From: Aliiroseovarius sp. F47248L
GTDB lineage: Bacteria > Pseudomonadota > Alphaproteobacteria > Rhodobacterales > Rhodobacteraceae
Direction: 5' to 3'
Assembly: GCF_023016085.1 (NCBI RefSeq)
Contig: NZ_JALKBF010000001.1
Location: forward strand, 1,674,001-1,738,000
DNA length: 64,000 nucleotides
Shown here: positions 13,918-37,995 of the stretch, in pieces
Layout: the number at the start of each line of letters is the position of its first letter
Position numbering within the stretch: the first letter of the stretch is position 1
Position numbers and translations under genes: made by a program
Notes under the pieces: generated by a model
Told to the model about the DNA's origin: nothing
The model's input: the letters and a program-made list of their open reading frames with translations, nothing else
The model's database searches: none

Positions 13918-15456
13918 ATGACAAAATCTTTTTCCCGCCGCTCTGGCGGTCGCGCCGCCCGCACCGCCCTGCGTGCAGCCCCCCTTGCCCAAGATGTTCG
14001 CCCTGTCCGCGCAGGAATGGAAGGCGGTACCTTTAAACCTCTCACCCCCGACGGCATCAATCGCATTCACCTTGCTGCCTTGGACGCATTAGAGCAGATC
14101 GGACTGGCAGATGCCCCACCATCGGGCATCGACATCATGACACGCGCAGGCGCAATCCTTGGCGACGACGGTCGTTTGCGCTTCCCACGTGCACTGGTTG
14201 AAGACATGCTGGCCAAAGCAGCCAAGAGCATCACCCTGTGCGGTCGCGATCCGCAGCATGACCTGACCCTCAGCGGCAAGCGCGTGCATTATGGCACCGC
14301 GGGCGCGGCGGTTCACATGGTCGACCCCCACGGGCGCGAATACCGCGAAAGCACGGTTCAAGACCTGCATGATGCGGCGCGAATTGTCGATCAGTTGGAC
14401 AACATCCACTTCCTTCAACGCCCCATGGTGTGCCGAGATATTCCCGACAATCGCGAGATGGACCTGAACTCGATCTACGCCTGTACATCGGGTACGAAAA
14501 AGCATGTCGGCGTTTCATTCTCTGAGCCTGACTTTGTAGAAGACGGCATCGAATTGTTGCACTTGATCGCGGGCGGCGAAGACGCGTGGCGCGCACGCCC
14601 CTTCGTTTCGAACTCCAATTGCTTTGTCGTCCCACCTATGAAATTTGCCACCGAAAGCTGTCACGTGATGGAGAAGGTCATCGCAGCAGGCATGCCCGTA
14701 TTGCTTCTGTCGGCTGGCATGGCCACCGCCACGGCACCCCCCACCCTGGCCGGCGCGATCGTTCAGGCCGTCGCCGAGTGTCTGGCCGGTGTGGTCTATG
14801 TGAACGCGATCGCACCGGGGCATCCGGCCATTTTCGGCACATGGCCCTTCTTGGTTGATCTGCGGTCCGGGGCGATGTCCGGCGGGTCGGGTGAACAGGC
14901 TTTGATGACGGCAGGCTGTGCGCAGATGCACCAGTTTTATGGCCTGCCCGGAGGGGCGGCGGCCGGGTTCTCGGATTCCAAACTGCCGGATATGCAGGCG
15001 GGGTGGGAACAAATGTGTTCCAATGTGCTGGCTGGTCTTTCGGGTCTGAACATGGTTTACGAGGCCGCCGGCATGCACGCATCGCTTCTGGGATTCTGTC
15101 ATGAAAGCCTGATCCTTGGCGATGACATCGTTGGGCAAGCCTTGCGCTGCGTGCGCGGGATCGAGATCACGGAAGATGCGGTCAGCATCGAGATGATGAG
15201 ATCGGTCTGCCTTGGCGGCCCTGGTCATTATCTGGGCGAGGATCAAACACTCAGCCGGATGCAGACAGATTTCGTTTATCCGACCCTTGGCGATCGGACA
15301 TCCCCAAAAGAATGGGCCGAGGTTGGAAAGCCGGATCTGATCGCTGCGGCCACCGCACGAAAAGAGGCAATTCTGGAGCAGCGATCCGGCGCCCGTTTCG
15401 ATCCGCAGGTCGATGCCGCTATTCGGGCAAGCTTCAACATTCACCTGCCGCAGTAG
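13918..15456 (+). CDS. Trimethylamine methyltransferase (MttB) family protein, non-pyrrolysine
   Basis: The 512-residue protein belongs to the MttB/MtgB superfamily, visible in VQDLHDAARIVDQLDNIHFLQRP, LSAGMATATAPPTLAGAIVQ and the C-terminal MRSVCLGGPGHYLG. Archaeal MttB uses an in-frame amber codon for pyrrolysine; this frame has no amber codon. It therefore belongs with homologues that demethylate glycine betaine, proline betaine, carnitine or similar quaternary amines and pass the methyl to a corrinoid protein. No corrinoid-protein gene is adjacent. The first 35 residues are basic and low in complexity. Confidence 0.85.
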   Translation: MTKSFSRRSGGRAARTALRAAPLAQDVRPVRAGMEGGTFKPLTPDGINRIHLAALDALEQIGLADAPPSGIDIMTRAGAILGDDGRLRFPRALVEDMLAKAAKSITLCGRDPQHDLTLSGKRVHYGTAGAAVHMVDPHGREYRESTVQDLHDAARIVDQLDNIHFLQRPMVCRDIPDNREMDLNSIYACTSGTKKHVGVSFSEPDFVEDGIELLHLIAGGEDAWRARPFVSNSNCFVVPPMKFATESCHVMEKVIAAGMPVLLLSAGMATATAPPTLAGAIVQAVAECLAGVVYVNAIAPGHPAIFGTWPFLVDLRSGAMSGGSGEQALMTAGCAQMHQFYGLPGGAAAGFSDSKLPDMQAGWEQMCSNVLAGLSGLNMVYEAAGMHASLLGFCHESLILGDDIVGQALRCVRGIEITEDAVSIEMMRSVCLGGPGHYLGEDQTLSRMQTDFVYPTLGDRTSPKEWAEVGKPDLIAAATARKEAILEQRSGARFDPQVDAAIRASFNIHLPQ

Positions 15457-25236: not shown

Positions 25237-25839
25237 TCAGACTTGCTGCGCGACCTCATCTGTCGGCGGTGGCGCGGTGTTGGGATCAGCACGTTTGAGC
25301 ACCACGGTATCCGAAAGGTCAATGCGGCGCAGCTTCGTTTCGACAACTGTCACCTTCTCCACTTTTATTTTGACCGAAGGTTGCAGATGCCCTGCGGCAA
25401 TTCCGATGATTTGGCGATCCTTGATGGAAAGGGAGACGCCCGCAACTTCAACCGTCAAACCAACAGGTATGCGAATTTTTCGCAAGTCGACCGCCTCACC
25501 AACGGTCAAACGAACCTCGGGGGTATGCGTCGATTTCAGTTTGTGTTTCAACAGCGCTGCAACCCGTGTCTTACCGTCCATCGGGCCTTTTTCCCCCACC
25601 AGAGCCTGCACAGACTTCATACCTTCCCACGCCTTCAAAAGCGTATCGATAAGTGAGATCGACAGCGCCTCTTCAACGGCAGTCGCCACCGATTTGTGCA
25701 GAGTTCCTGCGTCCAACTCCATTCCGGCAAGACGCACGCCCGGTTCCCCTTCGTTCAGCGCGGATTTGACGGCGTCGACCACATTGCTGAAATCGGTGGG
25801 CGGGATAGCAGTTTCCAGCGTTTCAATGCTGTCGGTCAT
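25237..25839 (-). CDS. Unknown 200-residue protein
   Basis: No family is recognised. The protein has no signal peptide or membrane segment. The N-terminal half looks helical (DFSNVVDAVKSALNEGEPGV). The C-terminal half is rich in alternating valine and charged residues that suggest a beta sheet (IRIPVGLTVEVAGVSLSIKD). Its start overlaps the stop of the preceding 650-residue membrane protein gene by 4 nt (ATGA), so the two are translationally coupled and probably interact. It could bind the cytoplasmic tail of that protein, which is inference. Confidence 0.6.
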   Translation of the reverse strand: MTDSIETLETAIPPTDFSNVVDAVKSALNEGEPGVRLAGMELDAGTLHKSVATAVEEALSISLIDTLLKAWEGMKSVQALVGEKGPMDGKTRVAALLKHKLKSTHTPEVRLTVGEAVDLRKIRIPVGLTVEVAGVSLSIKDRQIIGIAAGHLQPSVKIKVEKVTVVETKLRRIDLSDTVVLKRADPNTAPPPTDEVAQQV

Positions 25840-27788
25840 GGCTCATCGCTCCTGTCTTCTTCCCGGATGATTGTGATATCGGTTCGTCCACCCCGATCAA
25901 CTGTCAGGGTGATCGTCGGCATCTGATCTGGTTCGACTGAAATATCTGGTGTGGTGTCGGGCACCGCATACACGTGGGGCATGATCCCCGACGCTAGGGG
26001 CTTTGGCTGCCGCGCTTTCTTAAATGGTCTGAAACCTCTGAGCGGCCAGATGAAACTGCCAAGCAGTAACAGGCCGACAATGCCGGGAACCAGCCAAGAT
26101 GGCGGACCAGCGGCTGGTCGGCGCAGCGCAAGTGCGCGTTGGTCGCGTTCCTCACCGGCCCCGTCGTGCACACGGATCACCAGCGGACGGTTCACACCTG
26201 GAGGCGGCATCGCAACAGCAACCGCGCGCCGTTCACCGGTATAGGACCAGACTTCCGACGTGCCGTCACCCAGCTCGACGCTCAGTTCCGCATCCGGCCA
26301 AGCGTTCAGAAGATCTACAACAATCTTGGCTTCAGGCTCCTCGGTCTCAATTACATTCCCCTCAAGATCACCGGCTTCAATCTGCAATCGCATGTCCGCC
26401 AACCGAAAAAGTGTGAGCGATTGCCGCGCGCGGATCGTACCTTCCCTATCCACAGCAAGAAACGTGGCGGTGCCGCTATCGCCGGGACGGGGCATGGGCA
26501 GATCGACCGCAATCGGCACCTCTTCATAGCGACGCTGATCGACCACGCCGGGATCGTTTGTCTGCCATTCGACGCTAGCATCGGGCCACGGGTCGCGCAG
26601 GGTCACCTGCACCTGCACCCTGTCCGTGCTGGCCACAATTCGTCCGTTCCGCAGGTGATCAGAAGCCAGATTAAGCGTCATGTCCATCATGCGCCGAAGG
26701 GTCAGACGTGTCTGGGCAAGAACACGTGTGCGGCCGTCCAGGGCGTCAAAACGAAGGTCCAGTTCGGCGCCCGGGTTGAGCGCGAAGTGATAGGGTATGT
26801 CTTGGCCCTGAGCACGGCGGTCCGCTTCAGCGACACGGCCCCCGGCTGTTACGCGGACCCACTCTACCGCTGCTGTTTCACGCGGATCGCTAATCGACAC
26901 GATCACCAATTGTTCAGCATCAGTCGGATCGCTTTGCACCCGTCCGGTGATGCCTATGCGCGCACGCGCCAGTGCCGCTTGCAAGGCGGGCCAGTTGTTG
27001 ACAGGTGCTGGCTCGAACCGCCGGATCGCCCCACAACTTCCCCCACCAATAAGCCCGTCGACAACACCTGCATTAAGCCCGAGGGCGTTCAGATCAGACT
27101 GGATCTGCCGCGCCATTGCAACATCTAACCCGTCGGGTGGCCCGCAAGCCGGAATACGGCGGATGAAGACGCTGCGCGTTCTTGGGTTGCCCAAACGATC
27201 CTCGGCAGAAATGACAACTCGCGTTTGTGCGTAGTCGTTTGGCAAACGGATCATGATCTCAAATCGATCCCCATTGCGTTGAACCAAATTTGCCCCGCTT
27301 GCATCTGCTCTGGCAACGCCACTTGGATCAGTGATGTCGGCAACTATGGCGACCGACCCCGATGAGGCGGTGAATTCATTGGCCACTGGCTCAATCACCG
27401 GACCATCACGGTCTGTCTGCGTAGGCGTGGGCTCGGGGCGCGCAGAGTCTAGAATCGCTCTGACCCACCTGACCGCCGCACCTTCGATCAGAAGGGTGCA
27501 ACGACCGGTACGCAAAGCCAATGATCCGGACCGGATTGTCGTCACCAATGTTCGGATGCCACGTTCATTCAGAAACCGTGCAAACGCCTGATCATCTGTG
27601 CAAACAACTTGTCTTTGCAGGAACCGCTGCAGGTTAACATCCGACTGCCCAGCCAACATACTACTTAACAGCGATCGCATTCGATCATCGCCAAGTGTCA
27701 GCCCGTCGGGAAGGTTTTGCGCAAACGCATGGGTCAGCAATATCCAGATAAAAAGCACGGCAGAAACACCGTGGCGAAACCAGCGCAT
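25836..27788 (-). CDS. Unknown membrane-anchored 650-residue protein with beta-rich repeats
   Basis: A Sec signal peptide (FRHGVSAVLFIWILLTHAFA) starts the protein. Next come about 500 periplasmic residues of repeated beta-sandwich-like stretches (for example DPWPDASVEWQTND and NAWPDAELSVELGD). A peptidoglycan-binding-1-like segment near 250 (IQSDLNALGLNAGVVDGLIG) is included. A transmembrane helix near 560 (SWLVPGIVGLLLLGSFIWPL) and a cytoplasmic tail of about 70 residues follow. The start at 27788 was chosen for the signal peptide; the frame is open 93 nt further. It diverges from the redox operon. No known family is recognised. Confidence 0.6.
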   Translation of the reverse strand: MRWFRHGVSAVLFIWILLTHAFAQNLPDGLTLGDDRMRSLLSSMLAGQSDVNLQRFLQRQVVCTDDQAFARFLNERGIRTLVTTIRSGSLALRTGRCTLLIEGAAVRWVRAILDSARPEPTPTQTDRDGPVIEPVANEFTASSGSVAIVADITDPSGVARADASGANLVQRNGDRFEIMIRLPNDYAQTRVVISAEDRLGNPRTRSVFIRRIPACGPPDGLDVAMARQIQSDLNALGLNAGVVDGLIGGGSCGAIRRFEPAPVNNWPALQAALARARIGITGRVQSDPTDAEQLVIVSISDPRETAAVEWVRVTAGGRVAEADRRAQGQDIPYHFALNPGAELDLRFDALDGRTRVLAQTRLTLRRMMDMTLNLASDHLRNGRIVASTDRVQVQVTLRDPWPDASVEWQTNDPGVVDQRRYEEVPIAVDLPMPRPGDSGTATFLAVDREGTIRARQSLTLFRLADMRLQIEAGDLEGNVIETEEPEAKIVVDLLNAWPDAELSVELGDGTSEVWSYTGERRAVAVAMPPPGVNRPLVIRVHDGAGEERDQRALALRRPAAGPPSWLVPGIVGLLLLGSFIWPLRGFRPFKKARQPKPLASGIMPHVYAVPDTTPDISVEPDQMPTITLTVDRGGRTDITIIREEDRSDEP

Positions 27789-28146
27789 CTTACTATCCAA
27801 TCGAAAAATGATCTGCGGAACGCGCCCAGAAACAGCATCGATACTAACACAACTTAGCAGAGAATCCCATATTCGCACCAATGACCCGCTAACTAGAAGC
27901 CACGATCGGTTGGGGGAACGGGGTTACTCATGTGTACTGAAATGACCATTTGGTGGGAAGTAAAAGAGACCGAAATCCGCCGGTCAGAAACATCAAAATT
28001 GACAGGATGCGATTGTCCAAAATGGTTGATCAATCTGCCCCAAATTGTCCGACTGTTGCAAAAAAAGCGACCTGAGGCGAGAATAGGCCCATTATTTAAA
28101 ACCTAAAATTGATTCTATTTTGAATATCTTACCGAGGAGTTTAGCT
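27789..28146. other. AT-rich divergent intergenic region
   Basis: These 358 nt separate the 650-residue gene (minus) from the redox operon (plus) and are clearly more AT-rich than either side. GAGGAG lies 7 nt before the cytochrome start. I find no RNA gene, no strong hairpin and no confident -35/-10 pair. TTGATCAA near 28030 is an 8-bp palindrome of unknown meaning. Confidence 0.5.
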
Positions 28147-30558
28147 ATGATACTCCGTGTTATTTGGTTTGTTTTGGCCGGTCTGTTGATGCCATTCTCA
28201 GCATCGGCCCAGCTTTTTTCTGGCCCGAAAGACGAAGCACTTCTGGTCGGGCGGGACGAAACCACATTCCCCCCAGCGGACGAAGATTATTTCGCAGATA
28301 TGGACAACGGCATTGCCCTGACATCTGACGAGATTAAAGGTCGCAACATGTGGATGGTTTGGACCGGCGGCAATGATTTGCTGTGGGACACGCTGACCGT
28401 AGACACGTTTGGGCAGTTTGATCTGCTGAAAACCCTGTCTTCGCATCCCAGCCTGCCCGCCAAACGGTCAAACCGTTTCGAATATTTGGGCCTGATCAAC
28501 GAACCTTGTTTCAACGAGGCAACCAGCCCGGTTGAAGACCGCCACGGGCTGTGGCTGGACATAAGGCGCGACGATTGCACGCCCGACCCCTTCGCCAATG
28601 CCGAAAAATATCCGGGCGTCGAAATTGGCGCGCGCGGGCGCAACATGCCCATCTGGTCCTACTACGGAGAGCCCACGGGCGTTCTGGGCCTGCGTCTTTT
28701 CCCGAACCCCGAATTTGACGAACGCGCCGAAGAACGCTGGGACGCCGAACGCTTTTACAACGATCCCGATTACTATAATGACGACGACCTCGTGCGACCC
28801 TATCGGGTTGGCATGTCCTGTGCGTTCTGCCATGTCGGACCGAGTCCGATTGACCCGCCCGCCGACCCGGAAAATCCGGAAATGCGCAACCTGAACGCCA
28901 CCGTGGGCGCACAGTATTTCTGGTTCGACCGGATCTTTGCTTGGAAGCCGGACAAGCGGCAATACATGGTGCAGCTGATCCATACGGCGCGGCCCGGTAC
29001 GCTGGATACCTCGCTTGTGTCGCCCGATTACATCAACAACCCGCGCACCATGAACGCGATCTATCTGCTTGAGGAACGTCTGGCCGTCGCCCGACGCTTT
29101 GGAGAAGAACGGCTTGAGGGCGGCGAGTTGGACAACAAGCAGTTTCAGGATTACGTGCCCGAAGGCCCCCTGACCGAGTTTTTTGAAGAGCCTGACCTGA
29201 GCTTCAGCCCCCGCGTTCTGAAGGACGGGGCAGACTCCGTCGGCGCGCTTGGGGCGCTCAACCGCGTTTATCTGAACATCGGATTGTTCAGCGAAGAATG
29301 GACCCGCCATTTCAACCCCATCGTGGGCGGAAAAGACATCACGCCGATCAAGATCGAGACCGCGCAGAAAAACTCGGCTTTTTGGCGAGCGACAGAAGAT
29401 CAATCCCCACTGACGGCGCTTTATTTCCTGAAAGCAGGTCGCCCCGACCGGCTCGCAGAAGCGCCGGGAGGCGACGCGTTTCTGACCGAGGACGCCGAAC
29501 AAGTGGATCGCGGCAAGATCGTCTTTGCGGAAAACTGTGCTGGGTGCCATTCGTCGAAACTGCCGGAAAGCGCATACGAAGCCATGCCGGGCGGCTGTTC
29601 CGGCTCCGGATATCTGGAGTGTTTCAACCGTTATGGCGAGTTGACGCGAACAGATGATTTCAAAGCTCAGATGCGCGAGATCGTGCAGGCCGATGACTTT
29701 CTGAATGGCAATTACCTGTCCAGCGAATTGCGCATTCCGGTGACGTTGCTGGAAACCAACGCCTGCAGCCCGCTGGCCACCAATGCGATCGCAGGCAATA
29801 TCTGGGACAACTTCTCGTCTTCGACCTACAAGGCGCTGCCGTCTGTGGGGACGATCAAGGTGCATCATCCGAAGACGGGCGAGGAATATGAATACGAGAT
29901 GCCGGCGGGCGGGCGCGGTTACACGCGTGTGCCGTCGCTGATCAGCCTGTGGTCCACCGCGCCCTATCTTCTGAACAACACGGTGGGGTATTACAACCAC
30001 GACCCCTCGGTCGACGGGCGGATGGCGGCGTTCGAGGACGGGATCACCAAGATGCTGTGGCCGGAAAAGCGGCTGCGCGACACTGTGCTGGGCGACAAGG
30101 TGCCCGGCCTGATCGACCGCACGACGGAACAAAGCTATCTGATCGTGCCGCGCGGGTTTCAACCCGATTTTCTGGTGAAGCTGCTGACGCCTTTGCGCGA
30201 TGATCTGCCGTGGCTTTTTGATCTGGACGGCAATATCGAACTTGGCCCGATCCCCGCGGGTACGCCCGTCGGGCTTTTGGCGAACCTGAACATCCGGCTG
30301 GATCAGGCGGACCTGCTGGAGCGTTTGGGCCATGATTTCGAGCTGGCCAAGCTGATCATCAAGATCAAGCGCAACCTGAAGGAGCTGCCCGATGATGCCA
30401 GCGACGAACAGGCCCGCGCAATCTTTGCCGACCTGATCGAGCCGCTTCTGGAGTTGAGCAAATGCCCCGACTTCGTGGTCAATCGCGGCCATTACTTCGG
30501 CACCAAGCTGGAAGATGACGACAAGCACGCGCTGATCGCCTTTCTCAAGCGGTTTTGA
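28147..30558 (+). CDS. Exported di-haem c-type cytochrome, 803 residues
   Basis: A Sec signal peptide (VIWFVLAGLLMPFSASA) directs it to the periplasm. Two haem c motifs are present: C225-AF-C228-H229 (SCAFCHVG) and C464-AG-C467-H468 (NCAGCHSS). The spacing of about 240 residues and the size recall di-haem oxidoreductases in the broad MauG/RoxA/peroxidase sphere. Similarity to any one of them cannot be shown by eye. It is the first gene of the six-gene operon and could take electrons from, or oxidise the product of, the others. GC rises visibly after about 29880. Confidence 0.8.
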   Translation: MILRVIWFVLAGLLMPFSASAQLFSGPKDEALLVGRDETTFPPADEDYFADMDNGIALTSDEIKGRNMWMVWTGGNDLLWDTLTVDTFGQFDLLKTLSSHPSLPAKRSNRFEYLGLINEPCFNEATSPVEDRHGLWLDIRRDDCTPDPFANAEKYPGVEIGARGRNMPIWSYYGEPTGVLGLRLFPNPEFDERAEERWDAERFYNDPDYYNDDDLVRPYRVGMSCAFCHVGPSPIDPPADPENPEMRNLNATVGAQYFWFDRIFAWKPDKRQYMVQLIHTARPGTLDTSLVSPDYINNPRTMNAIYLLEERLAVARRFGEERLEGGELDNKQFQDYVPEGPLTEFFEEPDLSFSPRVLKDGADSVGALGALNRVYLNIGLFSEEWTRHFNPIVGGKDITPIKIETAQKNSAFWRATEDQSPLTALYFLKAGRPDRLAEAPGGDAFLTEDAEQVDRGKIVFAENCAGCHSSKLPESAYEAMPGGCSGSGYLECFNRYGELTRTDDFKAQMREIVQADDFLNGNYLSSELRIPVTLLETNACSPLATNAIAGNIWDNFSSSTYKALPSVGTIKVHHPKTGEEYEYEMPAGGRGYTRVPSLISLWSTAPYLLNNTVGYYNHDPSVDGRMAAFEDGITKMLWPEKRLRDTVLGDKVPGLIDRTTEQSYLIVPRGFQPDFLVKLLTPLRDDLPWLFDLDGNIELGPIPAGTPVGLLANLNIRLDQADLLERLGHDFELAKLIIKIKRNLKELPDDASDEQARAIFADLIEPLLELSKCPDFVVNRGHYFGTKLEDDDKHALIAFLKRF

Positions 30559-30568
30559 GGGCGGGGCG

Positions 30569-32452
30569 GTGGGCGCGGCGCATGACTACATCGTCGTCGG
30601 CTCGGGTGCTGGCGGCGGGACACTGGCCGCGCGGCTGGCGGAACGCGGTATGCGGGTTTTGTTGCTTGAGGCTGGCGGCGACCCCCGATCCGCCAAGGGT
30701 GACGTGCGCGGGATGGAGGCGGCGGGAAACCGGCTGCCCGACGATTACGACGTGCCCGCCTTTCACCCGTTTGCAACCGAGAACGCCGCGCTGCGCTGGG
30801 ATTTTAACGTCACCCACCACGCGGATGCCGACCAACAGGCGCGCGACACGAAGGCAGGGCCAGAGGGTGTGCTGTACCCCCGCGCGGGCACGCTGGGGGG
30901 TTGCACGGCGCACAACGCGATGATCTTCATGTATCCCCACAACGCCGACTGGCAGGGGATCGCGGATCTGACCGGCGATGACAGCTGGTCGCCTGCGGCG
31001 ATGCACAAGATCTTCCGGCGGCTTGAAAACTGCCGTCACCGCCCGGTGCAGCGCGTCTTGCACAGCCTTGGCATCGACCGCACCGGCCACGGGTTTGACG
31101 GCTGGTTGCCGACAGAAAAGGCGATCCCGCGCGCGGCCATTCGGGACGACGATATCATGGACATGCTGCGAAATTCCTTGCGCGAAAGCTGGGGATCGGC
31201 GCCGGGGTTTCTGAAGCGCCTGCGCTGGCTTGCCAACAGCGCTGCCGACCCCAATGACCGCGACCGCATCGGGGATGACGCGGTCGGCATGGTCTATACG
31301 CCGCTGACCACGCAAAACGGCGTGCGGGTGGGCACGCGCGAGCGGGTGCTGGACGTGGCACGCCGCCATCCCGACCGGCTGACGGTGGAGCTGGACGCGC
31401 TGGCGACGCGCGTGCTGCTGGATGATGACAACCGCGCCATCGGAGTTGAATACCTGAAAGGTACGCGGCTTTATCGCGCCCACGCCGCCCCAAGTGATGC
31501 GCCGGGCGAACCCAGGCAGGCGCTGGCCGGGCGCGAGGTCATTCTGGCCGGTGGCGCGTTCAACACGCCGCAGCTTTTGATGCTGTCGGGCATCGGCGAC
31601 CCGGACGAGCTTGTCCCCCACGGGATCACGCCGAAGGTCGCCTTGCCCGGTGTCGGGCGGTCGTTGCAGGACCGATACGAGGTCGCGGTGGTCAACCGAA
31701 TGGCTTTTGATTGTTGGGACAGCATGAAAGACTGCCGATATGCCAAGGGGGACGCGCTGTGGCAGCAATGGCAGACCCGTGGTGACGGGATGTATGCCAC
31801 AAACGGAGCGGCGCTGGGGATCATTCGCAGATCGTCCGAGGCGCAGATTCTGCCCGACCTGTTCTGTATGGCGCTTCTGGGGCGGTTCAGCGGGTATTAT
31901 CCCGGCTATGCCGCCGATCTGGCCCAAAGTCGCAACCATCTGAGCTGGGCGGTGCTGAAGGCGCATACGCAGAACCGGGCGGGCCGGGTGACGCTGGCGT
32001 CAGCCGATCCGCGCGATCCGCCTCTGATCGACTTCAACTATTTCCCGGACGGGGGTACGGACGACCTGTCGGCGGTCGTCGAAGGTGTCAAATTCGTCCG
32101 CAAACTGTGCCAGCCCCTACACGACTCCGGCCGCATCGCCGCAGAAGAAATCCCCGGCCCCGACGTGCAAACCAATGCCGAGATTGCACAGTTCGTGCGC
32201 GACAACTGCTGGGGTCACCATGCGTCATGTTCCTGCCCCATCGGCCCTGCGGATCAAGGCGGCGTTCTGGATAGCCGCTTAAGGGTGCACGGCACCAAAG
32301 GCTTGCGCGTGGCCGATGCTTCCGTTTTTCCACGCATCCCCGGATTTTTCATCGCGTCCGCTGTTTATATGGTTGGCGAAAAAACGGCCGAGATGCTGCT
32401 GCAAGACGCGCAATCCCACCCCGAACGAGAGGAGATGCACTATGGCACATGA
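30569..32452 (+). CDS. GMC-family FAD-dependent oxidoreductase
   Basis: The 627-residue protein begins with a Rossmann FAD motif DYIVVGSGAGGGTLAARLAE, followed by LLLEAG and the GMC signature region YPRAGTLGGCTAHNAMIFMY. The C-terminal active-site region has D545-NCWG-H550-H551 and ends VADASVFPRIPGFFIASAVY. GMC enzymes oxidise alcohols or sugars. No signal peptide is seen, although its operon partner cytochrome is exported. The start is GTG, 10 nt after the cytochrome stop. It overlaps the next gene by 11 nt. Confidence 0.88.
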   Translation: MGAAHDYIVVGSGAGGGTLAARLAERGMRVLLLEAGGDPRSAKGDVRGMEAAGNRLPDDYDVPAFHPFATENAALRWDFNVTHHADADQQARDTKAGPEGVLYPRAGTLGGCTAHNAMIFMYPHNADWQGIADLTGDDSWSPAAMHKIFRRLENCRHRPVQRVLHSLGIDRTGHGFDGWLPTEKAIPRAAIRDDDIMDMLRNSLRESWGSAPGFLKRLRWLANSAADPNDRDRIGDDAVGMVYTPLTTQNGVRVGTRERVLDVARRHPDRLTVELDALATRVLLDDDNRAIGVEYLKGTRLYRAHAAPSDAPGEPRQALAGREVILAGGAFNTPQLLMLSGIGDPDELVPHGITPKVALPGVGRSLQDRYEVAVVNRMAFDCWDSMKDCRYAKGDALWQQWQTRGDGMYATNGAALGIIRRSSEAQILPDLFCMALLGRFSGYYPGYAADLAQSRNHLSWAVLKAHTQNRAGRVTLASADPRDPPLIDFNYFPDGGTDDLSAVVEGVKFVRKLCQPLHDSGRIAAEEIPGPDVQTNAEIAQFVRDNCWGHHASCSCPIGPADQGGVLDSRLRVHGTKGLRVADASVFPRIPGFFIASAVYMVGEKTAEMLLQDAQSHPEREEMHYGT

Positions 32453-32894
32453 TATCGACACATTGATGGATATGGAGCAGGACGCGCTGGATGATTTGTT
32501 CTCGAGCGTACCTGCAGGTCCTATTCCGGATGGCGAGGCTGAAGGCACGGCAATTATCGCGCCGGGCACCCGATTCACGCCACTGATCTCGCGTTTCATC
32601 AATGGGTTTGCGTGGCAAGGAAAGGTCTTTGACAGCGACAAACAGGTTCTGAAAAACCGCATCCTGCCCTTCGGGCTGAACGCCATTCTGGCCAAGGTCT
32701 ATGTCGAAAAAAGCTGGCTGGATGGCAAGGACTGCATCGTGCTGGACTATTCCGACACCTCGATCGTGGCGCAATGGATCCGTGACGAGATCCGCCAGAT
32801 CGGACCGGGCATCTATTTGGGCAAGGTCTATTGGGACGACACACGACTGATCGATTTTGCACTTGAATTCAAAGTGGAAGACAACGGTAAATGA
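32442..32894 (+). CDS. Unknown 150-residue protein of the redox operon
   Basis: The protein has an acidic N terminus (MDMEQDALDDLFSSVPAG), then an alpha/beta region with SRFINGFAWQGKVFDSD, CIVLDYSDTSIVAQWIRDE and GPGIYLGKVYWDDT. There is no signal, membrane segment or cofactor motif. The GxYLGKVYW end and central cavity-type residues recall small lipid- or ligand-binding proteins, but I cannot name a family. GAGAGGAG lies 6 nt upstream. It overlaps both neighbours (11 nt and 4 nt), so it is made in step with the operon enzymes. Confidence 0.65.
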   Translation: MAHDIDTLMDMEQDALDDLFSSVPAGPIPDGEAEGTAIIAPGTRFTPLISRFINGFAWQGKVFDSDKQVLKNRILPFGLNAILAKVYVEKSWLDGKDCIVLDYSDTSIVAQWIRDEIRQIGPGIYLGKVYWDDTRLIDFALEFKVEDNGK

Positions 32895-34192
32895 CTGGGC
32901 AGGACACATTCTTCATTCTTGCCCCGGTCACCGAAGGCCGGGCGCAAGGGCTCGTGTCCTTGCTGGAAAGCATGACAGTAAAACCGGGGTTTGCCGACCC
33001 TGACAACACCCTTGTGCCGTTTGGGCAGTTTGATCAACTGCACGTAGCGCGGTTCTTTTTGGTGCAGTCAAACACCTGGCGTGATGTCGAAGCCTATGGC
33101 CGTTCGCCGCGCCCCTACCCCCTGGCGCTGGCGTTTCTGGGCGATGTGGACGGGGATCGCGATGTGTTCCTGCGTGAACTTGTCACCCGCTGCGCCGACG
33201 GGTTGTCCGAGATTTTCAGCCATTGCGAAGGCGTACATCACGGCACGGACCTTTTGCGCTGGATGGAAGATCACAACGTCGAGGAAGCCGCCAATTATGT
33301 AAACATGCGGGGGCGTACGGTCGCACAGATCCGGCAAGAGGCCGCGCTGGCCGCCGCCCTGCATAATGAGCTGGATGGGATCGTCAAGTCACACGGAAAT
33401 GCGGACGCCTTCGGCTTGCACCGCCATCTGACCGAGTTCGTCGCGCGTCAGAAAGCCAGCGGGCGATTGCACTTGACCCAGCCTGTGCGGGCGACATGGG
33501 GTGAATGGCTCATCGATAAACTCGACCTGATCAGCCTGCCCCTTCTTGTCTTGCTTTTGTCGCCACTGCTTGTGCTGCTGTCGCCGCTTTTTCTCTTGCG
33601 TCTGCGGATGGCCGAACGGTCCGACCCGGAAATCCTGCCTCGTCCCGATGATGACCACATCGTTGATCTGGGCCGATACGAGGATCACGATGTGACCAAC
33701 CCGTTCTCGGCCTTTGGGGATGTAAAGCCCGGATGGTTCCGCCGCTCTGTCACAACTGTCGCGCTGTATTTGTTGAATTATTCGGCAAGGCACATCTATG
33801 GCCGGGGGTATCTGACGCGGGTTCAAACAATCCATTTCGCGCGCTGGGTTTTTGTCGATGACAAGCGCCGTGTGATGTTTTGCAGCAATTACGACGGGGC
33901 GCTGGAAAGCTATATGGATGATTTCGTGAATAAGGTGGCATGGGGGCTCAATCTCGTGTTCTCAAACGGTGTTGGGTATCCGACCACACGGTTCCTGATC
34001 AAGGGTGGTGCGGCCCAAGAGGTGAAATTCAAGCGCTATTTGCGCAACCGTCAATTGCCTACGCAGGTCTGGTACAAGGCCTACCCCGGCCTAAGCGCCC
34101 GCGATCTTGCGCGGCATAGCGAAATTCGCAGAGGTCTTGAGGTGCGTCCTGACGGCGCGCGCGCTTTGCGCAACTGGTTGGCCAAGATATGA
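32891..34192 (+). CDS. Unknown 433-residue membrane-anchored protein of the redox operon
   Basis: The N-terminal 200 residues look like ferredoxin-like repeats (FFILAPVTEGRAQGLVSLLE, then FGQFDQLHVARFFLV). A long leucine-rich hydrophobic segment near 218-240 (LPLLVLLLSPLLVLLSPLFL) should span or hairpin into the membrane. The C-terminal domain repeats the theme: IHFARWVFVDDKRRVMFCSN, YDGALESYMDDFVNKVAWGL and VWYKAYPGLSARD. The two halves resemble dimeric alpha/beta-barrel proteins. From memory such proteins accompany DyP peroxidases. No catalytic residue is identified. It overlaps both neighbours by ATGA. Confidence 0.65.
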   Translation: MTGQDTFFILAPVTEGRAQGLVSLLESMTVKPGFADPDNTLVPFGQFDQLHVARFFLVQSNTWRDVEAYGRSPRPYPLALAFLGDVDGDRDVFLRELVTRCADGLSEIFSHCEGVHHGTDLLRWMEDHNVEEAANYVNMRGRTVAQIRQEAALAAALHNELDGIVKSHGNADAFGLHRHLTEFVARQKASGRLHLTQPVRATWGEWLIDKLDLISLPLLVLLLSPLLVLLSPLFLLRLRMAERSDPEILPRPDDDHIVDLGRYEDHDVTNPFSAFGDVKPGWFRRSVTTVALYLLNYSARHIYGRGYLTRVQTIHFARWVFVDDKRRVMFCSNYDGALESYMDDFVNKVAWGLNLVFSNGVGYPTTRFLIKGGAAQEVKFKRYLRNRQLPTQVWYKAYPGLSARDLARHSEIRRGLEVRPDGARALRNWLAKI

Positions 34193-35643
34193 CCCGCGCA
34201 CCCGACATATCCAACGAACCGGTCGCCTTTGACGACATGCAGGGCCTGATCCGTTTTGGCCATGGTGCTTTGGTCGAAGCAGCGTTCATCCTGTGCACGA
34301 TCCGCGATCCAAAGGCAGCCGGCGAATGGCTGGAACAGGCGCCTGTGACGTCGGCAGAGACACTTGACGCCCCGCCCAAGATCGCTTTGCAGGTGGCGTT
34401 CACCGCGACAGGCCTGCGCGCGATGGGGTTGGATAAAGGGCATATTGCTGGGTTCTCCCAACCTTTCCTATCCGGCATATCGGGCGAGGATAGCCGATCG
34501 CGCCGGTTGGGCGACACCGATGCAAATGCGCCGTCAGAGTGGGATTGGAAAGGGGCGGACTCGCACCTGTTAATCATGCTCTATGCCCGCAAAGGTGGAT
34601 TGAACGCGTGGAAAAACAAGATCCTAGATTCTTCGTTTTTCGCCGCCTTCAAAGAACGACACAGCTTCCCCACCCGCCCCAATGACGGGTTTGAGCCGTT
34701 CGGGTTTCGCGACGGAATCTCGGAACCCAAGATCGACTGGCAAGACGCCCGCCCCCCGGCAAAACACGGGCGCGAAGATTTCAGCAACTTGATTTCACCC
34801 GGTGAGCTCGTTCTGGGGTATCGCAACGAATATGACGAACGCGCGGACTTGCCCGAAGCCGATCTGGGGCGCAACGGCAGCTATCTGGTGATGCGACAAC
34901 TGGCGCAGGACGTACCGGGGTTCTGGAACTATCTGGACAAGGCAACGGGTGGCAACGACGAACAGCGCGAGCTGTTGGCGGCGCAAATGGTCGGGCGCAG
35001 ACGCGATGGCACCCCCCTGATCCACGACCGACACGACATCGCGGGATCTCCGCGCAAGAACGACTTCTCCTATGACGACGACGTGAATGGCACCTCGTGT
35101 CCGCTGGGTGCACATATCCGCCGCGCCAATCCGCGCACGGGCGATCAGCCACATCGCGGTCAGGGGCGGCTTGGCTGGCTTCTAAGCACGCTGGGATTTC
35201 GCAGGCGACGCGACAAGCTGCCGGGGCGGCATGACCTTATCGCCTCGACCCGTTTTCACCGACTGGTGCGGCGCGGGCGGGCCTATGGCAGCTCGCTGAC
35301 GCCCGAAGCTGCCTTGCGACCAGATGCACCGACGGACGCACGCGGGCTGTTTTTCATCTGCTTGTGCGCCGATCTGGTGCGCCAGTTCGAGTTTGTGCAA
35401 AATGCGTGGATCGCGTCGCCCACCTTCAACGGTCTGACGGGCGAGGCCGACCCCTTGCTGGGCAATCGTCAACCCTTCAGCGGCGTGGCCAGTGACGGGT
35501 TCACCATTCAGACGCCTTCGGGCACCGGACAGCGTCTTGCCCCCCTGCCCCAATTCGTGACCGTTAAAGGCGGTGGCTACTTCTTCCTGCCGGGTCTCAG
35601 CGCCCTACGCATCATAGCCCGCCATGGTAGACAAGAGGTCTGA
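34189..35643 (+). CDS. DyP-type haem peroxidase
   Basis: The 484-residue protein shows the DyP signatures: GxxDG as FRDGISEP with the distal Asp near residue 175, GSYLVMRQL, AHIRRANPR with Arg312/Arg316, and a probable proximal His357 in RFHRLVRRGRAYG. The end (FFICLCADLVRQFEFVQNAW, then VKGGGYFFLPG) is that of the larger DyP class. No Tat or Sec signal is present, so it should be cytoplasmic or held at the membrane by partners. DyP enzymes oxidise dyes, phenolics or other substrates with H2O2. The natural substrate is unknown. Confidence 0.88.
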   Translation: MTRAPDISNEPVAFDDMQGLIRFGHGALVEAAFILCTIRDPKAAGEWLEQAPVTSAETLDAPPKIALQVAFTATGLRAMGLDKGHIAGFSQPFLSGISGEDSRSRRLGDTDANAPSEWDWKGADSHLLIMLYARKGGLNAWKNKILDSSFFAAFKERHSFPTRPNDGFEPFGFRDGISEPKIDWQDARPPAKHGREDFSNLISPGELVLGYRNEYDERADLPEADLGRNGSYLVMRQLAQDVPGFWNYLDKATGGNDEQRELLAAQMVGRRRDGTPLIHDRHDIAGSPRKNDFSYDDDVNGTSCPLGAHIRRANPRTGDQPHRGQGRLGWLLSTLGFRRRRDKLPGRHDLIASTRFHRLVRRGRAYGSSLTPEAALRPDAPTDARGLFFICLCADLVRQFEFVQNAWIASPTFNGLTGEADPLLGNRQPFSGVASDGFTIQTPSGTGQRLAPLPQFVTVKGGGYFFLPGLSALRIIARHGRQEV

Positions 35644-36855
35644 ATGCGAAAAATCCTAGTCCCCCTTCGCCGCCTGTTCCACCGCGCCACACAGGTCGGC
35701 CTGCAAATCGAGCGGCGGTTGGAACCGTTCTTTCGCCGCCGCCTGAACGATCTGGTTCGCGCGCCGCTGGCCAGATGGATCCAGCGGATGAAGAACCGAA
35801 AGCGTCCGGATCTTGGGTTGGCCTTGGCCGAGGAGAAGATATTCGATTGGGAAGAGGAAGCGCTGCAAACCATCATCGACGAAATGCGCGAGCAGATGAA
35901 CTTGCATTTTCAGCCGGGTGCCTATGAGCGCGGTGGAAACACCAAGACACATGGTCTGGTCCGCGCAACCTTCACCGTGTTGCCTGACCTGCCCGACCAT
36001 CTGCGCACAGGAGTGTTTGCGACCGAACGCGATTATCCAGCTTATATCCGATACGCTGGCCCCGGCCCGGATGTGCCCGAAGACATTCGCGATGTGGGCT
36101 TTGGTTCGATGTCAGTCAAACTGATGGACGTGCCCGGCCCGAAGCTGATGGACGAAGAAAAGTTCACGCAAGACTGGCCCGCCGTTGTGACCCCCACATT
36201 CGTCACCCCCGACGCCCGCGAAAACGCCAAGCTGCAATATTGGAGCACCATCGACGAGCCGCTTTGGTACTTTCTCAACCCGAAAGACAGCCATTTACTC
36301 GACTTCCTGATGCAGGGCTTGTGGAACGAAACGCAGTATAATCCGCTGGGGCAACGCTACTACAGTTGTGTGCCGTATCTGTTGGGAGAAGGTCAGGCGA
36401 TGCTCTATTCCTATGTCCCGCGAACGGATGTGCCAATGGACATTCCCGGTGTGCCCTTTGGCCGCGTACCGCCCAATTATCTGCGCGACAACATGGCCCG
36501 GACCTTGCGTGCGCAGGCGGTCGAATTTGACATGGTCGTGCAGATCCAGACCGACCCGCACCTGATGCCAATCGAAGATGCCTCGGTCCTGTGGCCCGAA
36601 GACCTGTCACCGTGGATTCCGGTCGCGCGGATACATATTCCCATACAGGACTTCGACACCCCCGCGCAGATGGCCTTTGCCCGTAGCATGCGCATCAATC
36701 CATGGCACGCCCTGCCCGACCATCGCCCGCTGGGCAATCAAAGCCGCGCGCGGCGGCGGATGTATCAGGAACTGGCTGCGTTTCGGCAGCACATGAACCG
36801 GACGGAGCATGTCGAACCGACGGGGGAAGAGCAATTCGATGCTGCAAATGGCTGA
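35644..36855 (+). CDS. Catalase-like haem protein (y4iL-like)
   Basis: The 403-residue protein shows a catalase fold with the essential histidine in KTHGLVRATF (His103) and FGSMSVKLMDVPG. The C-terminal INPWHALPDHRPLGNQSRAR matches y4iL-like catalase relatives. I do not see the R-x-F-x-Y proximal-tyrosine motif of true catalases. The first 55 residues are arginine-rich and amphipathic, a possible membrane contact. The start immediately follows the DyP stop (TGAATG). It could act on organic or lipid hydroperoxides instead of H2O2, which is inference. Confidence 0.82.
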   Translation: MRKILVPLRRLFHRATQVGLQIERRLEPFFRRRLNDLVRAPLARWIQRMKNRKRPDLGLALAEEKIFDWEEEALQTIIDEMREQMNLHFQPGAYERGGNTKTHGLVRATFTVLPDLPDHLRTGVFATERDYPAYIRYAGPGPDVPEDIRDVGFGSMSVKLMDVPGPKLMDEEKFTQDWPAVVTPTFVTPDARENAKLQYWSTIDEPLWYFLNPKDSHLLDFLMQGLWNETQYNPLGQRYYSCVPYLLGEGQAMLYSYVPRTDVPMDIPGVPFGRVPPNYLRDNMARTLRAQAVEFDMVVQIQTDPHLMPIEDASVLWPEDLSPWIPVARIHIPIQDFDTPAQMAFARSMRINPWHALPDHRPLGNQSRARRRMYQELAAFRQHMNRTEHVEPTGEEQFDAANG

Positions 36856-37004
36856 TCGGTGGCATCCTTGGTCACAGGACCTGCTACGCGCTGGACAACA
36901 TCATGTAGCGGTCTGACGATCTGTCCTGCTACGTCTCCGGAACGTCATGCAAATGACTAGTCAATACCGCATCCGTCGCGTTCTACGACCAGCGGCCTGC
37001 CGTG

Positions 37005-37226
37005 CTAGAACAGCCGCCGGGTCAGCTTTCGCGATTGGCGGGCGCGTTTAGCTATGTCTTTGCCTTGTCCGGCCTGACTGTCGGCGCGGGTGCGTTGTTC
37101 GTCTGTCATCTGTTCGCGCTGCTTTCCCCGGCGCGAGGCCATATCGATCCCCATATCGACACCCTTGTTGACCAAACGGCGAGTCACCTGCCGGATGATC
37201 ATGTTGATGATCTGGTTAGCGTTCAT
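37005..37226 (-). CDS. Unknown 73-residue basic protein
   Basis: The small protein starts MNANQIINMIIRQVTRRLVN. The first 30 residues form an amphipathic or hydrophobic helix, and the rest is rich in Arg, Lys and Gln. AGGAGA is suitably placed before the ATG. It lies downstream of scpB on the same strand and converges with the redox operon. No family is named. Confidence 0.55.
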   Translation of the reverse strand: MNANQIINMIIRQVTRRLVNKGVDMGIDMASRRGKQREQMTDEQRTRADSQAGQGKDIAKRARQSRKLTRRLF

Positions 37227-37308
37227 ATCTGTCTCCTGCCCTTTGGTCGGATGTTAGCTGTAAACTCGGGCAATTTCACGTCGTTTCAAAGATTGGTCGC
37301 AGATAGCA

Positions 37309-37995
37309 TCAATCTTCGAACAACTCGGACTGGCCCTCGGGGCTTTCGTCTTCGTCGTCGGTTTCCGGGCCGGGCATTGCACCGGGCGGCGGTCGACTTT
37401 CCAGCAACCCGGCCGAGCGCAGCTCCTTCAAACCCGGCAGATCGCGGGCGCTTTCCAGCCCGAAGTGGTCCAGAAACTCAGACGTCACAACAAATGTCAC
37501 TGGTCGGCCCGGCGTCATCCGGCGGCGACCGAAACGGATCCACTCCATCTCGATCAATTGGTCGATGGTGCCACGACTAACGGACACGCCGCGGATTTCT
37601 TCAATCTCGGCCCGGGTGACGGGTTGGTGATAGGCGATGATTGCCAGCGTTTCGATGGCCGCGCGCGACAGCTTGCGCGTCTCAACCGTTTCTTTTTGCA
37701 TAAGATAGCCAAGGTCCGGCGCAGTTCGGATCGCCCAGGCATCGCCCACCTTGACCACCGAGACACCGCGCCCCTCGTATCGTTTGCGAAGATACACCAG
37801 AGCTTCTGCAGCATCCGCGCCATGGGGCATACGCGCCTCAAGCTCTTTCACCGTCACTGGATTAGCAGACGCAAACAGGATGGCCTCGACCATGCGTTCC
37901 TGTTCGCCCATCGGTGGGGCTTCGAACAAGCTGTCATTTGCCGCATCCGCACGGCCTTCGCCCGTCACATCATCACGCGTTACATCATCCGTCAT
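37309..37995 (-). CDS. scpB: Segregation and condensation protein B
   Basis: The 228-residue protein has two winged-helix domains, beginning EQERMVEAILFASANPVTVK and including ETLAIIAYHQPVTRAEIEEI and RGVSVSRGTIDQLIE. It forms the SMC-ScpAB complex that compacts and separates chromosomes. The start at 37995 overlaps the end of scpA by 11 nt and has AGGAAA in front; the longer in-frame start at 38058 lies inside scpA. The C-terminal tail is acidic. Confidence 0.95.
   Translation of the reverse strand: MTDDVTRDDVTGEGRADAANDSLFEAPPMGEQERMVEAILFASANPVTVKELEARMPHGADAAEALVYLRKRYEGRGVSVVKVGDAWAIRTAPDLGYLMQKETVETRKLSRAAIETLAIIAYHQPVTRAEIEEIRGVSVSRGTIDQLIEMEWIRFGRRRMTPGRPVTFVVTSEFLDHFGLESARDLPGLKELRSAGLLESRPPPGAMPGPETDDEDESPEGQSELFED

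Follow-up and report, generated by a model that had tools for sequence, protein, structure and literature searches.

A tight row of six plus-strand genes, here called g1 to g6, occupies positions 28147-36855 of a 64,000-nucleotide stretch of DNA from Aliiroseovarius sp. F47248L (contig NZ_JALKBF010000001.1; hereafter the window). In our view the operon is probably one form of a bacterial oxylipin-type pathway for lipid peroxidation that is modular and apparently moves horizontally; in it, g1 and g2 would oxygenate a lipid and g3-g6 would process the hydroperoxide. Directly established are the enzyme families, the linkage of the genes, the change of front ends, the residues of the DyP peroxidase, the residues lost from the catalase-fold protein and the predicted folds. 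An earlier note on this DNA had taken the six genes for one system working on an alcohol- or lipid-like substrate; linkage supports the single system, and the lipid direction is probable.

Read from the DNA, g1 and g2 are separated by a 10-nt gap, g2 and g3 overlap by 11 nt, g3 and g4 by 4 nt and g4 and g5 by 4 nt, and g5 and g6 meet in direct TGA-ATG contact, which is the pattern the earlier note had described. Its gene identities are likewise borne out by Pfam, PDB and profile comparisons. The first gene, g1 (28147-30558), encodes an exported di-haem c-type cytochrome of 803 amino acids with two CXXCH motifs, a presumed lipid oxygenase; its ATG at 28147 follows a GAGGAG box of the ribosome-binding type (28134-28139, plus strand), and an alternative in-frame TTG at 28120 is possible. 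Adjoining it is g2 (30569-32452, GTG start), a GMC flavin oxidoreductase. Two orphans follow: g3 (32442-32894, 150 amino acids), a predicted eight-strand barrel, and g4 (32891-34192, 433 amino acids), predicted to consist of two ABM-like ferredoxin-type halves and a hydrophobic helix (residues 203-244). The row ends with g5 (34189-35643), a haem peroxidase of the DyP type in which Asp, His and Arg residues are conserved, and g6 (35644-36855), a catalase-fold haem protein without the distal His and Asn of catalases.

Linkage was surveyed in the best 80 of 207 g4 loci, chosen by g4 similarity from one-genome-per-species contigs, many of them from the same genera. Up to 10 kb was fetched on each side of g4, and modules were marked by similarity to representatives, with presence called at 60 bits or more; 66 loci have full flanks (6 kb or more ahead of g4 and 3 kb or more behind it) and 14 are too short. 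With start codons chosen by rule, g4 and g5 share a strand and are separated by at most 126 nt in 79 of 80 loci, the exception (L009) ending inside g4, while g5-g6 spacing is at most 95 nt in 68/80 and g3-g4 spacing at most 293 nt in 66/80. Among full-flank loci, g6 is present in all 66, DyP in 65 and g3 in 61 (64 including weak matches). The locus counted as lacking DyP, L020 from a metagenome-assembled genome, has a 926-residue frame that fuses DyP to g6. Fused frames of a second kind join a P450 region, the C-terminal half of g4 and DyP in one frame of roughly 1,410 residues (L095:6602-10834 and L096:5856-10085, from genomes G055 and G171; the P450 was Pfam-tested in L095 only), and two further genomes, G194 and G197, contain similar long frames.

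All six window genes fall inside the fetched stretch in 31/80 loci, and the window's order and strand are kept in at least 11/80, a lower bound since sorting by stop-to-stop frames misorders at least L072 and L077. The genes g3-g4-g5-g6 are thus a back end that mostly travels together, and g1-g2 are a separable module. The earlier note would have counted it as a refutation if the six homologues were usually found apart; this is not so for g3-g6, but g1 and g2 stand side by side in two sampled genomes (G042 and G186; loci L103 and L104) where g3 and g4 are unmatched.

What precedes the back end varies. A front end, meaning a presumed lipid dioxygenase that is either g1, a cyclooxygenase relative of the AHP family or a lipoxygenase, lies within about 10 kb in 65 of 66 full-flank loci: g1 only in 26, AHP only in 24, g1 and AHP in 6, all three in 7, AHP and lipoxygenase in 2, and none in L011. 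Reduced to genus-level labels (n=38), 17 are g1 only, 16 AHP only, 4 both and 1 none, so that 37/38 have a front end; among the 14 short loci it is seen in 6 and not in 8. Three AHP proteins tested match PF03098, and that of a Nitrosospira locus (L041) matches prostaglandin G/H synthase 2 (cyclooxygenase-2) with E 2.5e-68 over residues 12-518. A Y-R-W/L-H motif, which we take to hold the cyclooxygenase catalytic Tyr and the proximal His, occurs in the AHP proteins of 40/43 AHP loci. The one lipoxygenase tested (L017) matches PF00305 with E 2.4e-62, and the C-terminal residue of the 11 lipoxygenase proteins is Ile in 6 and Val in 5. Patatin-type genes occur in 10/80 loci, a Tle1-like phospholipase family in 4/80 and a tyrosinase family in 4/80 (one of each was Pfam-tested). 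In L041 (14196-17562) and its sisters, the flank of the back end contains a cyclooxygenase relative with a lipoxygenase gene next to it, and in a Nitrosomonas locus (L032:1258-4134) the cyclooxygenase-type gene is seemingly broken into four frames.

Where g1 is missing, a dioxygenase of the cyclooxygenase or lipoxygenase type is found in its stead, L011 and eight truncated loci excepted, and this suggests that g1 is an oxygenase; the role of mere electron acceptor that the earlier note gave it is not supported. The window's own genome has no AHP (PF03098) and no lipoxygenase (PF00305) match, and g1 is therefore the sole representative of the three dioxygenase types there. In a 23-row alignment (A6) the two CXXCH motifs of g1 are invariant, and its N-terminus is hydrophobic and signal-type. 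Like RoxA-type proteins, g1 is of double size and has two CXXCH, and its sequence relates it distantly to the RoxA and di-haem peroxidase group: all 23 rows match the di-haem peroxidase model NF040606 at E <= 0.001, and at that threshold 3 of the 23 match RoxC and 1 matches RoxA. The window protein stays below the cut-offs of the RoxA/RoxB and di-haem peroxidase models (NF040606, E 3.7e-9, 36.3 bits against 150; PF21419, 11.3 bits against 26.7). Against the PDB, the g1 profile found only short CXXCH-type stretches of cytochromes, and RoxA was absent from the 47 matches at E <= 1. Three Nitrospira loci (L053, L060, L062) and L010 show a variant: ahead of g4 they have a distantly related g1, a weakly g3-like protein of some 300 residues, and another di-haem protein with two CXXCH.

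The GMC assignment of g2 is above both Pfam cut-offs (PF00732, 66.5 bits; PF05199, 106.5 bits). Present in 32/66 full-flank loci, g2 is always accompanied by g1, and g1 occurs without it in 7. This pairing tells only that the two work together; g2 may oxidise an alcohol product, or it may swap electrons with g1.

The peroxidase identity of g5 is carried by its match to PDB 8re3 (E 6.9e-43), by a Dyp_perox_C score above the PF20628 cut-off (23.5 against 20 bits), and by D175, H309 and four Arg within 358-364 that are invariant in 81/81 rows, two of which are the window's own copy. We take these to be the catalytic Asp, proximal His and distal Arg of DyP peroxidases. The protein stays under the cut-offs of PF21105 and of TIGR01413 in NCBIfam (84.3 against 100.5 bits).

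By Pfam, the window's g6 is unmatched and none of 27 members matches any family at E <= 0.1, PF00199 included. Its catalase fold is supported by profile comparison, in which the only PDB matches at E <= 0.1 were 1u5u (E 0.00088, one local stretch) and 3dy5 (E 0.0072); in the comparison bearing on kinship with 1u5u, CAT1, a sister family of g6, gave E 4.2e-9. The proximal motif R-x-x-x-Y, presumably the haem ligand motif of catalases, is present, with R370 and Y374 in 79/79 rows. The distal site is another matter. N99 (Asn in 79/79) stands opposite a Gln of CAT1 by hhalign, and the last step, from N99 to the His of classical catalases, was made by eye on the R-x-x-H-x-K pattern, which we assume marks the distal region of those enzymes. 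The distal Asn, placed by D-x6-P-x-F spacing as in catalase 2j2m, is also absent, residue 181 being V, T or I and residue 182 being S, C, V or T in 79/79 rows. T102-H103 was considered as a distal catalase pair and rejected, since H103 is Gln in 12/79 rows and N99 takes that position in the profile alignment. Judged by these residues g6 is no catalase, and it also lacks the distal His of catalase-related allene oxide synthases and hydroperoxide lyases. The kinship with catalase that the earlier note proposed thus holds at the level of the fold, with Pfam silent, while peroxide handling by a catalase does not find support.

The two orphans are without a Pfam or NCBIfam match. Scans of 41 members of each family against Pfam gave nothing convincing (the best E for g4 was 0.038, scattered among unrelated families), and sequence searches of both profiles against the PDB gave nothing useful. 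Both families are large, with at least 7,996 database relatives for g3 (of 8,000 scored candidates) and at least 5,450 for g4 (of 7,999), at E <= 0.001. Best protein matches put the window's genome near Aliiroseovarius. The model of g3 suggests a barrel of the fatty-acid-binding or lipocalin sort; that of g4 is a paired ferredoxin-like barrel fold with ABM-like halves around the hydrophobic helix. The best 50 matches of the g4 structure search include no DyP or chlorite dismutase entry, which carries no weight against such a kinship. Overall, g4 has the appearance of an ABM-type enzyme, or of a binding protein, anchored in the membrane. Of the earlier note's pairing of a carrier with a scaffold, the carrier agrees with the modelled barrel of g3 and the scaffold is unproven. 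One locus (L036) has two different tandem g3 genes (371-799 and 1117-1569) 5' of g4.

We propose a model in which exported g1, with the flavin enzyme g2, would oxygenate an unsaturated lipid to a hydroperoxide or cleavage product. The g3 barrel would carry the oxidised lipid and g4 would keep it at the inner membrane, where it may also act as a cofactor-free ABM-type enzyme. The hydroperoxide would be rearranged or cleaved by g6, and g5 could take it as oxidant or reduce it. The fatty acyl substrate, the order of the steps and the product are what we infer. Because three unrelated dioxygenase types occupy the same place, the simplest interpretation is that it is the kind of product they share, a lipid hydroperoxide, on which the back end acts. 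The chain would span the inner membrane, since the N-terminus of g1 is signal-type, g4 has only its internal helix, and g2, g3, g5 and g6 have no strong hydrophobic stretch.

For comparison we used an even draw of 249 Pseudomonadota genomes, among them the window's own genome and a congeneric one. AHP-family matches occur in 22 of them, lipoxygenase in 1, g3 in 3, g4 in 14 (3 of full length), g6-like genes in 25 and g1-like genes in 11 (4 over 800 bits). In all three g3-bearing genomes (the window's own, G235 and G070), g3, g4 and g6 lie near one another; in G070 (L099:4850-12300) the g3-g4-DyP-g6 back end is accompanied by an alpha/beta hydrolase and a different GMC, which matches GMC domains. 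Weaker g4-like genes stand beside DyP and g6-like genes in L100, L101 and L109, and in L102 a RoxA-like di-haem gene, above cut-off for both NF040606 and PF21419, lies by DyP with a short g4-like match. A draw within the family, one genome per genus, gave g4 matches in 9/159: the window's own is full-length and high-scoring, G253 and G282 match in both halves at low scores, and six are partial. The distribution of g4 is patchy.

Several results weigh against a lipid-peroxidation pathway of this kind. As only weak kin of RoxA-type oxygenases, g1 could be a plain electron carrier, and it is exported while g3-g6 have no visible signal peptide. L011 has no front end within its 12.7 kb, and two Nitrosomonas loci (L015 and L018) and a contig-end piece (L033) have AHPs without the motif. 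The whole genome of G070 has no AHP, lipoxygenase or g1 match, and none of the four sampled genomes with the long g4-DyP fusion (G055, G171, G194, G197) matches PF03098, PF00305 or g1. In the control draw, 19/25 genomes with g6-like genes have no g4 match and 8/14 with g4 have no g6-like match; distant relatives therefore often stand alone, the two co-occurring in only 6/25 and 6/14. Finally, the back-end counts come from loci selected for g4 similarity, many of them congeneric.

As near copies make the labels cluster, exchange is more safely gauged by changes along a tree than by the number of loci. A quick tree was built from 67 g4 proteins of Pseudomonadota, Thermodesulfobacteriota, Nitrospirota, Verrucomicrobiota, Acidobacteriota and Myxococcota. 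It requires a minimum of 5 changes in AHP presence and 4 in g1 presence, each of which may be a gain or a loss; counting only what strongly supported branches demand, the g1-only label changes 3 times or more, and so does the AHP-only label. Phyla are intermingled on the tree, where Nitrospira adjoins a Methylococcaceae row (support 94), and this is suggestive of horizontal transfer.

The most serious rival, in our view rather unlikely, is that the back end simply detoxifies, destroying lipid hydroperoxides from the front end or the environment with no signal or product as its goal. DyP and catalase-fold proteins suit peroxide removal, and in Pseudomonas aeruginosa the hydroperoxide-forming PA2077 is toxic when expressed without its partner, according to the portion of PMC4496055 consulted. 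However, a presumed hydroperoxide maker of its own in 65/66 loci would be odd for clean-up alone, and the catalase distal residues are missing from g6. We give still less credence to isoprenoid or sterol oxidation, with g1 cleaving polyisoprenoid or sterol side chains as RoxA does rubber and g2 oxidising the alcohol. The distant relationship of g1 to the RoxA group would fit, and the GMC of L099 looks cholesterol-oxidase-like by eye, but clusters without g1 hold cyclooxygenase-type enzymes or lipoxygenases, which are fatty-acid families, and phospholipase-family genes lie beside some. Very improbable is the scheme of the earlier note, in which H2O2 from the GMC enzyme is used by DyP to oxidise an alcohol or aromatic substrate, the catalase-like protein clears the excess and the cytochrome takes the electrons: the gene families fit it by name, but GMC is missing in 34/66 full-flank loci that keep the back end, and the residues of g6 are not those of catalase. 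That the genes are chance neighbours with no common pathway has next to no probability, for even if g1-g2 are separable and distant g6-like genes loosely linked, order is conserved over six phyla, spacings are small and there are two kinds of fused frames.

A lipid-peroxidation pathway would have partial precedents. In Nostoc punctiforme, Brash in 2014 reportedly described a linoleate 10S-dioxygenase with a catalase-related hydroperoxide lyase. Our loci resemble this arrangement of a dioxygenase and a catalase-related partner from a separate gene: CAT1 is a second catalase-related gene that, always with AHP, stands 5' of g3 in 24/66 full-flank loci. They differ in that 15 AHP full-flank loci are without CAT1 and the window's genome is without AHP. 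In Nostoc a cyclooxygenase-type dioxygenase works with a catalase-related lyase, and the g3-g4-DyP-g6 back end, an extra here, goes unmentioned in the parts of the source we drew on (PMC13049297). The same parts describe the fungal linoleate diol synthases, fusions of a fatty-acid dioxygenase to a P450 in which the haem partner rearranges the hydroperoxide. A haem enzyme is similarly tied in where L095 fuses P450 to g4-DyP, but the other partner domains differ, and those parts mention no DyP or g4 (PMC13049297).

For g1 the nearest likeness, by description, is with P. aeruginosa PA2077/PA2078 (OdsA/OdsB), RoxA-related di-haem fatty-acid oxygenases of about double size with two CXXCH; as far as the excerpt of that paper goes, their operon is described without a g3-g6-type back end (PMC4496055). 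For g6 it is with the coral allene oxide synthase-lipoxygenase (1u5u, 3dy5), a catalase-fold partner of a lipoxygenase and the sole PDB match noted above. The coral enzyme retains distal His67 and Asn137, as stated in the section of PMC5617202 seen, whereas g6 has an equivalent of neither. Lipoxygenases are rare in bacteria, found in under 0.5% of species (PMC6612559, in part), and have been characterised in Nitrosomonas europaea according to a review (PMC11941309, in part).

A dioxygenase with a hydroperoxide-converting haem partner is therefore known, and the widely shared back end is apparently undescribed. Among the matches listed from the open-licence PMC literature, judged by title and start of abstract, none describes a g3-g4-DyP-g6 back end; nor did we find in open-licence literature a name for the six-gene set, for which the earlier note had known none. 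To our knowledge, bacterial oxylipin pathways comprise few cases, mostly of one or two enzymes. It is tempting to speculate, though only tentatively, that a lipid-mediator pathway as yet undescribed is common to bacteria of many phyla: one g3-g4-DyP-g6 back end would convert hydroperoxides from any of three unrelated dioxygenases, g4 being a new membrane enzyme of the ABM type that converts oxylipins and g6 a catalase turned hydroperoxide isomerase. A constant back end with di-haem cytochrome, cyclooxygenase relative and lipoxygenase swapped in front would join three separate literatures. The cluster would also aid the assignment of function to the two large families of g3 and g4, and would offer ready gene sets, including some in ammonia oxidisers and methanotrophs, for probing the roles of oxygenated lipids in bacteria.

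Around the operon, a sigma-70-type scan of 27700-37400 returned no plus-strand promoter. Large minus-strand open frames flank it, from 25237 to 27881 upstream and from 37309 onward downstream. The upstream region includes a 681-residue frame (25836-27881, minus strand), divergent from the operon, that has a weak peptidoglycan-binding match and otherwise no convincing family match. Elsewhere in the window, 13918-15456 encodes a trimethylamine methyltransferase family protein (MTTB, PF06253).

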